Source: Kangiella marina (GTDB lineage Bacteria > Pseudomonadota > Gammaproteobacteria > Enterobacterales > Kangiellaceae). From it: DNA of 64,000 nucleotides. Where the stretch lies: the NCBI RefSeq assembly GCF_039541235.1, contig NZ_BAABFV010000001.1, forward strand, positions 62,001-126,000. The letters are read 5' to 3'. Numbering within the stretch: position 1 is the stretch's first letter; each line of letters starts with the position of its first letter. The notes beneath the pieces were generated by a model that saw only the letters and a program-made list of their open reading frames with translations, did not search any database and was not told where the DNA came from. A program made the position numbers and the translations under genes. Positions 45,870 to 49,913 of this stretch are shown piece after piece.

Positions 45870-46541
45870 ATGTCACAACCGACAGCACATCTTGATGTGG
45901 AATTAACCGAACATACTTATAGTATTGGCGAGGAAATTGCCAATGCGATGAGTCATGCTATTGGTGCTTTATTGAGTGTGGCCGCAATGACCATGATGAT
46001 TATGGTATCTTTGGAGCCGCTCAATGGCTGGAAATTAGCCAGCGCTATTGTTTATGGGTTTAGCCTTGTCGTTTTGTTCACGACATCAACCCTTTACCAT
46101 AGTTTCCAACCAGAAAACCTAAAAAAGATCTTCCAAACATTGGATCACTGCGCCATATACTTTTTGATCGCGGGAACCTACACGCCGTTTGTACTGATCA
46201 GCCTTAATGGTATTTGGGGCTGGTCGCTATTTGGTGTTATCTGGGCTTTGGCAGTATTTGGTGTGACCTTTAAAGTTAAGTTCAAACAACGCTTCCCGAG
46301 AGTGTCCTTAATTACCTATATTTTGATGGGGTGGGTCATTGTCGTCGCTGCCCCTGAAATGTTGGACAAAGTCGCTCCCGGCGCATTATGGTTACTTCTA
46401 GCGGGCGGTTTATCTTACACTTTAGGTACCGTTTTTTACGCTGCAGACCGCAAGATACCATTCAACCACGCTATTTGGCACCTATTCGTCCTCGGCGGCG
46501 CCGTGTGTCACTTCCTCGGCATTTATTTGTTCGTGTTTTAA
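45870..46541 (+). CDS. Hemolysin III / PAQR-family membrane protein
   Basis: 223 residues and seven TM helices. PAQR signatures are present: EEIANAMSHAIGALLS, STLYHSF with its His, and the C-terminal HAIWHLFVLGGAVCHFLGIY with the putative metal His. Related to TrhA/YqfA of E. coli, linked to membrane energetics and fluidity in bacteria; the hemolysin name is historical. It follows fadH by 36 bases with its own GGAG site and may share its transcript, which would fit a lipid role. Confidence 0.9.
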   Translation: MSQPTAHLDVELTEHTYSIGEEIANAMSHAIGALLSVAAMTMMIMVSLEPLNGWKLASAIVYGFSLVVLFTTSTLYHSFQPENLKKIFQTLDHCAIYFLIAGTYTPFVLISLNGIWGWSLFGVIWALAVFGVTFKVKFKQRFPRVSLITYILMGWVIVVAAPEMLDKVAPGALWLLLAGGLSYTLGTVFYAADRKIPFNHAIWHLFVLGGAVCHFLGIYLFVF

Positions 46542-46560: not shown

Positions 46561-46670
46561 CAATAGGACGGGTTAGCATTGAAAAGATGCGTCACCCATC
46601 AATATCACTCCCAGCAATTAACGTTTTCCTCTTGGCCTTCTTCGAGAATAAATGTACTCTGACCCATTAA
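46561..46670. repeat. GGTCAGAGTA-family repeat, copy A (5'-truncated)
   Basis: Starts with a hairpin (GGGTTAGCAT 46570-46579 with ATGC-GTCACCC 46587-46597), then the shared CCTCTTGGCC module and the end module AATAAATGTACTCTGACC (46648-46664). Its order matches copy C at 47783-47940, minus the left end, so it is a fragment of the same element. It lies just past the PAQR gene and opens the accessory island. Confidence 0.65.
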
Positions 46671-46784
46671 TTTTTTCCAACGTCTGTGGAGCGTCTAATA
46701 AAGCTTAATAAGATACTTGAGCCAAACCAAGGCGCCATTAATTGGGCTGCATGTACATTATTTTGCGGTTACTAGGAGGAACTA

Positions 46785-47255
46785 ATGTATTTTGAAGATG
46801 GTAGTATTTACGACTATAAGTTAAAGCACCCTTTTACCCTAATAAAAAATATTGGTTGGTTGGACAGTAAGCACCCTTATACACAGGGAAGTGTAAGCGA
46901 AGAGTTTTTAATGAAGTTATCTTCTGTACTCTTTAAAAGAGGGAGTTGCGAGCCTACTTTTAATATAATTAGAGGAACCCATCGGTGCAATTTATGTAAT
47001 GAAACTGAAGTTTGTATTTACCAAAGCCAAAGCGGCAACTCTAAAAGGTTGGGGGGAAGTGAAATCCTTATTCCAAATGTTGTTGGGGAGGGATATTTTG
47101 CTTCACCATCAATGATATATCATTATATAGCAAAACACTCCTACATGCCTCCAAGAGATTATATTGACTCGGTACTAAACTTTGATTTAACGCAACAATT
47201 TAATGCTGAGGAACTTTATACAAAGTTGGTTGATGATTCGTATAATAATAAATAG
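46785..47255 (+). CDS. Orphan small protein with HxC-xxC motif (possibly DUF7919 type)
   Basis: 156 residues, no signal peptide, AT-rich compared with its neighbours. The N-terminus MYFEDGSIYDY with NIGWLDSKHPYTQG, the RGTHRCNLC motif (about 64-72), GGSEILIPN and the YHYIAKHSYMPPRDYIDSV stretch agree with a family of scattered single genes that I recall as DUF7919. Its function is unknown; it is found in diverse bacteria, often in variable islands. His and two Cys could bind zinc. A strong AGGAGG (46774-46779) precedes the ATG. It is bounded on both sides by GGTCAGAGTA-family repeats, so it was probably acquired. Confidence 0.75.
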   Translation: MYFEDGSIYDYKLKHPFTLIKNIGWLDSKHPYTQGSVSEEFLMKLSSVLFKRGSCEPTFNIIRGTHRCNLCNETEVCIYQSQSGNSKRLGGSEILIPNVVGEGYFASPSMIYHYIAKHSYMPPRDYIDSVLNFDLTQQFNAEELYTKLVDDSYNNK

Positions 47256-47260
47256 AATGG

Positions 47261-47358
47261 ATTTAATGTGGTCAGTAAATTAATTTTTGGCTTACAGGGA
47301 GAGTAGCATTTGACTGCTTCTCGGTTGTTCCTAAATAAATGTACTCTGACCCCATTAA
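47261..47358. repeat. GGTCAGAGTA-family repeat, copy B (short form)
   Basis: Left end TTTAATGTGGTCAG-TAAATTAAT with one changed and two missing core bases (47261-47284), then TTTTTGGCTTACAGG, a short inner part, and the inverted right end AAATAAATGTACTCTGACC (47334-47352) followed by CCATTAAG. About 98 bases with terminal inverted repeats. It begins within 10 bases of the stop of gene 46785. Confidence 0.65.
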
Positions 47359-47363
47359 GTTTT

Positions 47364-47408
47364 CCACTTGGCCTTCTTCGAGAATAAATGTACTCTGACC
47401 GCATTTAT
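47364..47408. repeat. GGTCAGAGTA-family repeat, right end only
   Basis: The CTTGGCCTTCTTCGAG module and AATAAATGTACTCTGACC (47383-47400) recur directly after copy B, nearly identical to 46631-46664. A left end is missing. It directly precedes the promoter region of the next gene. Confidence 0.6.
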
Positions 47409-47459
47409 TGAGTTTATTGTTATAATAAACACAATTAATGCAAAGAGGTGAAATCTGCA

Positions 47460-47762
47460 ATGATTAATAGAGAAGAATTAGCTAGAGAAACTAGAAGCTT
47501 GGTTAAAATGTTAAAATATTACGAAGAAGAGTACCCTGCAGCAGGTGAGCTACTCAGAAGAAAACAAGAACTATTTAGCTCAGCAGTCGAAGAGAGGATA
47601 TCAACCCCACTCAGAGAAGGCTTTTTCCCTGAAGAGCTTTGGATGGATGGGGAGTTATTTGAACTAACAGGACTTTGTGACTGTGCTGCTCGTTTTAGTA
47701 TATTACTCCAAGGCTGGAGTTCTATCGAAGAGTTTCGTCCAGAATTAATGGGGTCAGAGTAA
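47460..47762 (+). CDS. Orphan small acidic protein ending inside a repeat
   Basis: 100 residues, unrecognised. Mostly helical, rich in Glu and Leu, two adjacent Cys in the LCDCAARF segment. A TATAAT (47421-47426) is a likely -10 and AGAGG (47444-47448) a ribosome binding site with proper distance to ATG 47460; an in-frame GTG at 47448 is less likely as it is part of that site. The last codons (Leu-Met-Gly-Ser-Glu-stop) are encoded by the TTAATGGGGTCAGAGTAA of a repeat, so the element supplied the present C-terminus. Small acidic proteins in such islands are sometimes immunity or antitoxin proteins, but nothing here proves that. Confidence 0.7.
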   Translation: MINREELARETRSLVKMLKYYEEEYPAAGELLRRKQELFSSAVEERISTPLREGFFPEELWMDGELFELTGLCDCAARFSILLQGWSSIEEFRPELMGSE

Positions 47763-47767
47763 ATTAA
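47744..47767. repeat. GGTCAGAGTA-family end, overlapping the stop of gene 47460
   Basis: TTAATGGGGTCAGAGTAAATTAA, left-end type. It is followed within 20 bases by the left end of copy C, so two ends stand in tandem. Confidence 0.7.
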
Positions 47768-47782
47768 TCCTCAAATTATAAT

Positions 47783-47940
47783 TAATGGGGTCAGAGTTAA
47801 ATTAATCTTTGGCTTACAGGAAAGCATTTTAATAGTACGGGGTGGCATTAATTTAAATACGTAACCCATCAACACCATTCTAAAGTTCACGTTCTCCTCT
47901 TGGCCTTCCTGGAAAATAAATGTACTCTGACCCCATTAAG
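47783..47940. repeat. GGTCAGAGTA-family repeat, copy C (most complete, MITE-like)
   Basis: About 158 bases. Left end TAATGGGGTCAGAGTTAAAT followed by TAATCTTTGGCTTACAGG. An inner imperfect palindrome (GGGTGGCATTAATTT with AAATACGTAACCC, about 47840-47866) follows. Then come CACGTTCTCCTCTTGGCCTTCC and the inverted right end AATAAATGTACTCTGACCCC. The ends are inverted repeats of each other. No open frame, so non-autonomous. It is the reference copy for A and B. Confidence 0.7.
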
Positions 47941-47957
47941 TTAAGTCGCTCCTAAAG

Positions 47958-47979
47958 TAATGGGGTCAGAGTACAATTA
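47958..47979. repeat. GGTCAGAGTA-family end
   Basis: TAATGGGGTCAGAGTACAAT, an isolated left-type end that closes the island 18 bases after copy C. Confidence 0.7.
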
Positions 47980-47995
47980 TTGATATTTCTTAGCA

Positions 47996-48020
47996 AAAAG
48001 GCGCCAAGCGGCGCCTTTTC
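47996..48020 (-). terminator. Terminator of the M2 peptidase gene
   Basis: AAAAAGGCGCC pairs with GGCGCCTTTT around AAGC. On the minus strand it ends in a T-run; it could work in both directions. Confidence 0.8.
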
Positions 48021-48023
48021 TTT

Positions 48024-48068
48024 TATAGGAGCACGATGGGTTACGGCTATCGCCTAACCCATCCTATA
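48024..48068. repeat. REP-like palindrome after the M2 peptidase gene
   Basis: GATGGGTTA-C-GGC with GCC-TAACCCATC (48035-48063), flanked by TATAGGA and TCCTATA, which are also inverted. Same family as the pair at 41534. Confidence 0.65.
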
Positions 48069-48071
48069 AAA

Positions 48072-49913
48072 TTACCAACCGCAGTTACGGCCTTCGTTTT
48101 GCTCGTCTAACCATGTTTTCAGTGGCGCGTAGTACTCAAGTACTGCTGTTGCGTCCATTTCACGGCTGCCAGTCATGGCTTCAAGTGCGTCAGGCCATGG
48201 ACGTGAAGAGCCCATTTCTAGCATCTTGATGAGCTTTTCGCCGACTTCTTTGTTGCCGTAGAACGAGCAACGGTGAAGTGGACCTTTGTTGCCAGCCATG
48301 TCACACATTTCACGGTAGAACTGGAACTGCAAGATGTGTGCTAGGAAGTAGCGTGAGTAAGGCGTGTTGCCTGGAATGTGGTATTTCGCACCTGGATCGA
48401 AGTGGTCTTCAGTACGAGCCACTGGCGCTTCAATACCTTGGTACTTTTCACGCAGTTCCCACCAGCCTTGGTTGTATTCTTCTGGCGAAATTTCACCGTT
48501 GAATACTTTCCAGCGCCATTGGTCAACCATTAAGCCGAACGGTAAGAAAGCAACTTTGTCCAGCGCTGAGCGCATTAATAGTGCAATATCAGCACTTGCG
48601 TCTGGCTCTTTGTCGATTAGGCCAATCTGCTTCAAGTATTTTGGAGTAATTGATAGTGCTACTGTGTCGCCGATTGCTTCGTGGAAGCCATCGTTAGCAC
48701 TGCCTTTGTAGAAGATCGATTGATCTTTATAAGCACGTTGATAGTAGTTGTGGCCGAGTTCATGGTGAACGGTTTGGAAATCTTCACCGTTGATTTCGGT
48801 ACACATCTTAATACGAATATCTTCTTCGTTGTCGATATCCCATGCGCTAGCGTGACATTGAACATCGCGATCACGTGGCTTGACGAATAACGAACGCTCC
48901 CAGAATGTTTCTGGAAGAGGGGCGAAGCCTAATGAAGAGAAAAAGTTTTCAGCAGTTTTAACCATCTTCTTAACTGCGACTTCTTTTTCTTCATGGCTGA
49001 CGTTTTCTTTGTCGACGCCATAGTGCTTACGCAAGATAGGATCGATGTCGATGCCTTTGCCTGCATTTTTAGGGCCTGCGATGTCGTAGATATTGCCCCA
49101 TTGCTGTGCCCACATGTTGCCTAATAGGTGTGCTGGAATCGGCTTATCCATCGCAACAACCTCGTCGCCATACTGGTCATTCAACTCAGCGCGGACGTGG
49201 CAGTGTAGTGCTTTATAAAGTGGTTGCACCTGACCCCATAAGCGATCCATTTCAGTGGCGAAGCCGTCAGCGGGCATATCGTACTTAGAGCGCCACATGG
49301 TGCCGGTATCAGCGTAACCAAGTTCTTTTGAACCTTCGTTAGCGATGTCAACCATTTGCTTATACAGCGGACGCATTTCTTTAGAAATTTCACGCCAGCC
49401 TGTCCAAGCTTTTAATTGCTCGTCAGCGTCGCGTGATTCTCGTAAAACTTGGCTTAATTGACCAAGGCTACGACCGTCAGGGCTCTTGCCTGTGGCATAA
49501 ATACTGTCTAGTTTAGACGTGATTTGTGCCAATTGTTTGGTTTTGTCAGCATCAGCTGGAGCCGGTAAAGTCAGGCCTAGCTTGATCATTTCAATCTTAC
49601 GATTAACGTCGTAAGGTAAGTCCAAACCGTTAAACTTCTTCGCTTTATTCGCTAGCTCAACGCCTAGCTTAGTGTAGTCTTCACCAACCTGAGCGTTTAG
49701 CGCCGTGGTGTCATGAGTCACAAAATTCGCATTAACCCATGCAATGCGTGCGGCATATTCTGCAATTTCTGTTAATCGCTTTTCCGCATCAGCAACAAAA
49801 GCAGCCGCGTCTTCGGCAGTGACTTTTTGTTTATGATCGTCGGCGATAACAGGTTGTCCTAATAAAGCACCTACCAATACCGCAGTACTGACGGCTTTTT
49901 TAAGCGTTATCAT
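48072..49913 (-). CDS. Periplasmic M2-family (ACE-like) metallopeptidase
   Basis: Dipeptidyl-carboxypeptidase of the angiotensin-converting enzyme family. 613 residues, signal peptide ending VIA (about residue 24). Zinc motif H384-E385-L-G-H388 with third ligand E412, the exact M2 spacing; NDGFHEAIGD surrounds it. Most bacterial members trim C-terminal dipeptides from peptides in the periplasm. Initiates at ATG 49913 behind AAGGG. A probable Fur box covers the promoter region (49935-49955), unexpected for a peptidase. Its terminator and a REP follow. Confidence 0.94.
   Translation of the reverse strand: MITLKKAVSTAVLVGALLGQPVIADDHKQKVTAEDAAAFVADAEKRLTEIAEYAARIAWVNANFVTHDTTALNAQVGEDYTKLGVELANKAKKFNGLDLPYDVNRKIEMIKLGLTLPAPADADKTKQLAQITSKLDSIYATGKSPDGRSLGQLSQVLRESRDADEQLKAWTGWREISKEMRPLYKQMVDIANEGSKELGYADTGTMWRSKYDMPADGFATEMDRLWGQVQPLYKALHCHVRAELNDQYGDEVVAMDKPIPAHLLGNMWAQQWGNIYDIAGPKNAGKGIDIDPILRKHYGVDKENVSHEEKEVAVKKMVKTAENFFSSLGFAPLPETFWERSLFVKPRDRDVQCHASAWDIDNEEDIRIKMCTEINGEDFQTVHHELGHNYYQRAYKDQSIFYKGSANDGFHEAIGDTVALSITPKYLKQIGLIDKEPDASADIALLMRSALDKVAFLPFGLMVDQWRWKVFNGEISPEEYNQGWWELREKYQGIEAPVARTEDHFDPGAKYHIPGNTPYSRYFLAHILQFQFYREMCDMAGNKGPLHRCSFYGNKEVGEKLIKMLEMGSSRPWPDALEAMTGSREMDATAVLEYYAPLKTWLDEQNEGRNCGW

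Follow-up and report, generated by a model that had tools for sequence, protein, structure and literature searches.

Hairpin repeats of the TIRYT type at the borders of variable accessory genes in Kangiella marina and its relatives

The window analysed here, a stretch of 64,000 nucleotides of the Kangiella marina genome (G000), contains a 1.4-kb interval between an hlyIII gene and an M2 peptidase gene, in which two small genes lie among copies of a short repeat. Comparison of species shows that small accessory genes are inserted and replaced at many intergenic spots of the genus, and that this island is such a spot. The same comparison shows that the repeat copies mark the borders of the exchange, with their inner side (GTCAGAGTA) toward the conserved chromosome and their outer side (AATTAAT) toward the variable cargo. 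By association, the GGGGTCAGAGTA repeats are hairpin-forming terminal inverted repeats (TIRs) of TIRYT elements (TnpA-REP subclass 2.1). We place about half of our belief in the full reading, according to which the TIRs of a TIRYT mark the borders of swapped cargo, the two window genes included, most likely through nicking of the outer foot of the TIR by the TIRYT. The features of the interval and its anchors are as follows.

45870-46541, forward strand: hlyIII/TrhA host gene, left anchor (Pfam HlyIII, NCBIfam TIGR01065)
46565-46601, no strand: degenerate palindrome (GGACGGGTTAGC..GCGTCACCCATC), resembles the REP of the resident RAYT (compared with L039)
46647-46672, reverse strand: TIR core A, at the left junction of host and cargo; GGGG lacks one C
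46785-47255, forward strand: cargo gene 1, 156 aa, DUF7919 (Pfam PF25535, E 4e-33), AGGAGG upstream
47263-47284, forward strand: TIR core B, degenerate (AATGTGGTCAG-TAAATTAAT), bounds the short form on the left, from the sequence
about 47263-47358: short form, an inward TIR pair of cores B and C
47334-47358, reverse strand: TIR core C, bounds the short form on the right, exact core
47383-47409, reverse strand: TIR core D, GCGG variant with arms AATAAATG..CATTTATT, from the sequence
47448-47762, forward strand: cargo gene 2, 104 aa (100 aa if it starts at ATG 47460), no known family
47743-47768, forward strand: TIR core E, with which the 3' end of cargo gene 2 is fused
47780-47806, forward strand: TIR core F, bounds the 158-bp element on the left
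47782-47939, no strand: MITE-like element of 158 bp between inward TIRs, in full length at this site only
47915-47939, reverse strand: TIR core G, bounds the 158-bp element on the right
47955-47982, forward strand: TIR core H, right host/cargo junction
47990-48022, no strand: host terminator (AAAAAGGCGCCAAGCGGCGCCTTTTC), kept in G017 and G020
48072-49913, reverse strand: M2 peptidase host gene, right anchor (Pfam Peptidase_M2), syntenic in close species

A first-pass annotation of this DNA had counted four rightward and four leftward cores, and all eight could be located, seven of them clear and one degenerate. The leftward cores lie at 46655, 47342, 47391 and 47923 and the clear rightward ones at 47750, 47787 and 47962, while the degenerate rightward core occupies approximately 47263-47284 (TTTAATGTGGTCAG-TAAATTAAT); the adjoining TAAATTAATTTTTGGCTTACAGG matches 47798-47820 to 96%. 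The MITE-like element of 158 bases, the short form and the half ends described there are likewise present in the sequence, both small unrelated genes in the gaps exist as open reading frames, and the interval contains no transposase. The 158-bp element has terminal inverted repeats of 16 bp and folds better than its shuffles (z -2.5), and partial copies of it are found at 46562-46670 and 47359-47405. A hairpin with the arm type of core D also folds (z -4.4). When two mismatches are allowed, GGGGTCAGAGTA has eight matches in the 64-kb window against 2.2 expected, a number reached by none of 100 shuffles, and seven of the eight are confined to 1.3 kb of the island. Chance as the source of this clustering is ruled out by the shuffles together with a reversed-sequence control.

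According to Di Nocera 2013 (PMC3733652), TIRYTs are Y1 HUH transposase elements whose TIRs have the consensus GGGGWSAS. These widespread elements are assigned in Quentin 2018 (PMC6006769) to TnpA-REP subclass 2.1, which is present in 14.9% of strains. The island cores read GGGGTCAG and contain the GGGGWSAS motif; their consensus is AATTAATGGGGTCAGAGTA, a hairpin of about 26 bp with an GGGGTCAGAGT loop. The named genomes were scanned with an alignment of core-flanked Y1 proteins, and the flanks of the 80 loci obtained were searched for GGGGTCAGAGT with up to one mismatch. The motif faces inward on both sides of the Y1 gene in 33 of the 80 loci; it is present upstream in 44 and downstream in 38, the upstream core often lying about 70 bp ahead of the Y1 start. 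The wrong orientation was seen at four loci, and the background amounts to 54 matches in 319 kb. Two inward cores also flank a Y1 transposase gene in a genome of the class (L144), and within the genus a Y1 gene lies between inward cores in G028 (L098), and in G025 (L097) a Y1 gene is followed at its 3' end by a core. The suggestion that a Y1 tyrosine transposase with the same ends might exist elsewhere is thus borne out in the 33 loci of named species and in G028.

Across species the loop stays fixed while the arms change together (AATCAAT/ATTGATT, AAGT/ACTT, AGTTT/AAACT). On average 5.36 of 7 arm positions pair, compared to 4.17 +/- 0.16 after shuffling, with a maximum of 4.73 among 2000 shuffles; inside the genus the co-variation of the arms does not rise above shuffles. 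A constant loop with co-varying arms is what is expected of a hairpin that is read as a single strand. Searching the literature by the core sequence gave no paper on bacterial repeats, and the matches look like primer sequences.

The core is not private to the island but is scattered through the own genome and the genus. The 2.5-Mb genome of G000 contains nine exact copies of AATGGGGTCAGAGTA and none of the reversed control; the same sequence is present in 14 of 40 genomes of the family, and AATGGGGTCAGAGT in 16 of 274 genomes of the class. No cognate TIRYT gene was found in G000, whose single Y1 gene encodes an E. coli-type RAYT with different REPs, and most core-rich relatives are also without a TIRYT. 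Dispersed TIRs without their own gene would be non-autonomous relics, and therefore we class the repeats as TIRs but not the island as a TIRtron. The resident RAYT was rejected as mobiliser, as it is flanked by its REP GATGGGTTACGC..GCTAACCCATCC and by no core. Copies of this REP lie in the window at 48035-48063 and around the RAYT in L039, at 1195-1230 and 1880-1915. A large array is seen in a genome of the SAR92 clade (L233, 1-4900), where around 20 TIR cores are arranged around a TIRYT gene, the right TIR occurs six times in a row and small genes lie between outward cores.

The hlyIII gene was found in 20 of 20 genomes of the genus. In G020 the hlyIII-M2 interval is empty, 92 bp long and without a core. 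Other genes are found at this spot in G017, G022, G032, G033, G021, G024 and others; cores are found there in G000, G017 and G022, whereas the genes of the remaining species, among them G032, G033, G021 and G024, are not accompanied by cores. In G034 a core follows directly after hlyIII, with different DNA past it: compared with core A, the identity is 79% between the hlyIII stop and the outer core edge and then disappears. Core H has its counterpart in G017, equally far from the host terminator and with unrelated DNA on the outer side, and is missing in G020. Homology at the island borders hence ends at the outer edges of cores A and H, and the cargo differs. The related species do contain different genes between the same outer cores, the left one shared with G034 and the right one with G017, and the hlyIII-M2 site behaves across species as the spot that collects small genes which the first-pass annotation had suspected.

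Several other chromosomal spots behave similarly. At the ABC-F spot (locus 6) the same core with a 114-aa gene follows three different genes in G022, G032 and G033, and the same core with a 115-aa gene follows three others in G017, G034 and G020. At the PfkA-TonB spot (locus 7) G022 and G032 do not differ up to and including the core but are unrelated beyond it, beginning with the very next base, and the site is empty, without a core, in G033, G020 and G021. Copies of a third repeat, around GCGTAGCCTCGAAGGAAC..TTCGAGGTT, are also met with in these variable spots (ABC-F to VF530; L274, L275, L276, L277, L078) and show no enrichment at breakpoints. Upstream of the PfkA-TonB cargo, a stretch around TAGCAAGATCAGTAGNTTAGGGGAAG is present (L253, L254, L255, L090, L079, right part) which is missing from the empty sites and may serve as a promoter or go back to an old insertion.

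Breakpoints of homology fall at outer core edges (core included) 14 times, compared to 2.0 +/- 1.4 expected for random positions in the same intervals, and by unique endpoints 21 breakpoints lie at core edges against 4.9 +/- 2.2 expected; as the compared loci were picked for the presence of cores, which tend to be close to the ends of host genes, these edge counts are inflated. The junctions of locus 6 are internal, unlike cores near host gene ends. Homology stops at the inner side of the core in comparison to core-less genomes and at the outer side in comparison to core-bearing ones, from which it follows that a border TIR turns its inner side to the host and its outer side to the cargo.

The breakpoints could also be due to a passive process, in which single TIRs and miniature elements accumulate near gene 3' ends in intergenic regions that vary in any case, and host recombination, for example natural transformation with microhomology, crosses over at the repeats of 20-25 bp, so that no transposase acts on the cargo. 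Recombination from repeat to repeat would give identical breakpoints, and inside an identical repeat the position of a breakpoint can be resolved no further than to the repeat itself. The 3' end of the left neighbour points at the core in 58 of 81 cases, and a position close to gene 3' ends is general for REPs according to PMC3733652. However, two other repeats of the same intervals, the CCTCGAAGGAAC repeat and the RAYT REPs, are at chance at breakpoints, and 20-25 bp are short for a RecA-type exchange. Since the transposase is missing from G000, as from most core-rich relatives, and in several species accessory genes occupy these spots in the absence of cores, we judge this passive exchange to be nearly as likely as cutting by a TIRYT.

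The orientation of the cores bears on how the cargo is held. Among 22 gene-sized core-to-core intervals in the genus one is inward, with a Y1 gene inside, while outward and tandem intervals number 11 and 10. Between the inward pairs of the genus there is nothing but the Y1 gene or a short spacer. None of the 21 non-Y1 intervals of 200-2500 bp is inward, and cargo lies between the elements, on their outer sides. In other species 29 of 35 gene-sized inward intervals hold Y1 genes, which outward intervals do not. Outward intervals can there simply result from successive inward pairs, whereas most cores of the genus are unpaired. Both genes of the window are flanked by outward-facing cores. A composite or MITE-type transposon, with genes enclosed and carried by a pair of inward TIRs, would agree with the inward TIR pairs of the 158-bp and the short element and with the Y1 genes between inward TIRs, but given the outward cores around both window genes and the lack of inward cargo intervals in the genus, we find it scarcely credible. 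The idea that short inverted-repeat elements bound cargo genes needs to be revised accordingly: variable genes do lie between the same outer cores, but the elements do not enclose them. The absence of inward cargo intervals is also left unexplained by passive exchange.

The cargo itself is mostly ORFan. Only two of 20 sampled proteins score above the Pfam cut-off; the sample includes a SUKH-1 protein and a toxin tip of the Tox-WTIP type, which has a weak Imm50 match next to it. The toxin tip is encoded in a core-bordered stretch (L075, 4446-5274) which comprises an Rhs-type C-terminal tip with the Tox-WTIP domain and the weak Imm50 match, without an Rhs body. Cargo gene 1 has no further copies in 19 genomes of the genus or in 368 genomes of the class, so that no case of DUF7919 travelling with cores was seen in other genomes of the class. 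Plasmid homologues of the DUF7919 protein are found in Streptomyces, Bartonella and Herpetosiphon with 28-38% identity. For cargo gene 2, whose final residues and stop codon are supplied by core E (47750), no homologues were found in the 368 class genomes or in plasmids.

Arrays of the type gene-core-gene-core, with cores at gene 3' ends and ORFan cargo, recall integron-like cassettes, in which a gene and its 3' core would be moved by a tyrosine integrase with the core acting like attC. This is very improbable, as the core is a small hairpin without paired GTTRRRY/RYYYAAC sites and the end of a Y1 element, and junction duplications are variable instead of precise. An attC-like stretch (GCCTAAC..GGGCGTTATG) behind the PfkA-TonB cargo gene of G034 (L253) was rejected as its fold is no better than shuffles.

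These duplications are exact tandem repeats of 9-20 bp at the outer edge of the TIR. They are present at 63 of 358 distinct sites (16 of 88 in the genus, 47 of 270 elsewhere), compared to one of 358 at the inner edge and four of 716 at controls shifted by +/-60 bp. The duplicated unit takes in the arm together with a few flanking bases that differ from locus to locus, usually also either GG or GGGGTC(A/G), and is followed by the whole TIR. Such duplications were seen at L053, L055, L057, L058, L066, L070, L078 and L088 and at 34 loci of other species; the cores of the window itself have no exact outer-edge duplication. They probably stem from repeated strand breakage at the foot of the TIR or from replication slippage at the hairpin, and passive exchange leaves their one-sided position unexplained.

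With cutting by a TIRYT, the preferred reading, the events could be pictured as follows, where the TIRYT as maker of the cuts is inferred. A TIRYT, which is now lost from G000 or acts in trans, would nick single-stranded DNA at the outer foot of the TIR hairpin. The freed end would be joined to other DNA instead of its original flank, by which the cargo would be replaced beside a fixed TIR, and repeated nicking and repair at the outer foot would leave the tandem duplications. The two window genes would be cargo of such an exchange. Capture mediated by Y1 is plausible but unproven. The stronger proposal of a dedicated Y1 HUH gene-capture system, with TIR hairpins that serve for attachment and have foreign DNA ends ligated at their outer foot, integron-like arrays of orphan and toxin-immunity genes formed without an integrase and the duplications as nicking scar, we regard as unlikely.

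Among known systems, TIRYTs and TIRtrons come closest, with GGGGWSAS-type repeats as inverted pairs around a Y1 gene and dispersed single, dimeric and grouped TIRs. Unlike them, lone TIRs lie here at the borders of variable cargo with the cargo on the outer side, tandem duplications occur at the outer edge, and the genome of the window has no TIRYT. Neither TIRs at cargo borders nor outer-edge duplications were found in the available portions of Di Nocera 2013 (PMC3733652) and Quentin 2018 (PMC6006769); the repeat family is known, and its role here is not described in the papers found. REPINs and BIMEs mobilised by RAYTs share the inverted pairs of short hairpins, the non-autonomous nature and the position near gene 3' ends. 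However, in the cores the arms are variable and the loop is fixed, the arms are AT-rich without the GTAG or GTGG at the foot that characterizes GTAG-type REPs, and the resident RAYT has its own unrelated REP. Integron gene cassettes also form arrays of small orphan genes, each with a short site behind it, and are exchanged at fixed spots, but the core belongs to an HUH transposon and its consensus shows none of the paired R and L boxes of attC. TIR ends at the borders of swapped genes may therefore mark an undescribed way of collecting genes. TIR outer edges as breakpoints of accessory-gene exchange, with a one-sided duplication scar, provide two testable handles on TIRYTs. If it is true that the transposase acts in this way, it would be a second route besides integrons to arrays of small genes, including polymorphic-toxin and immunity genes.
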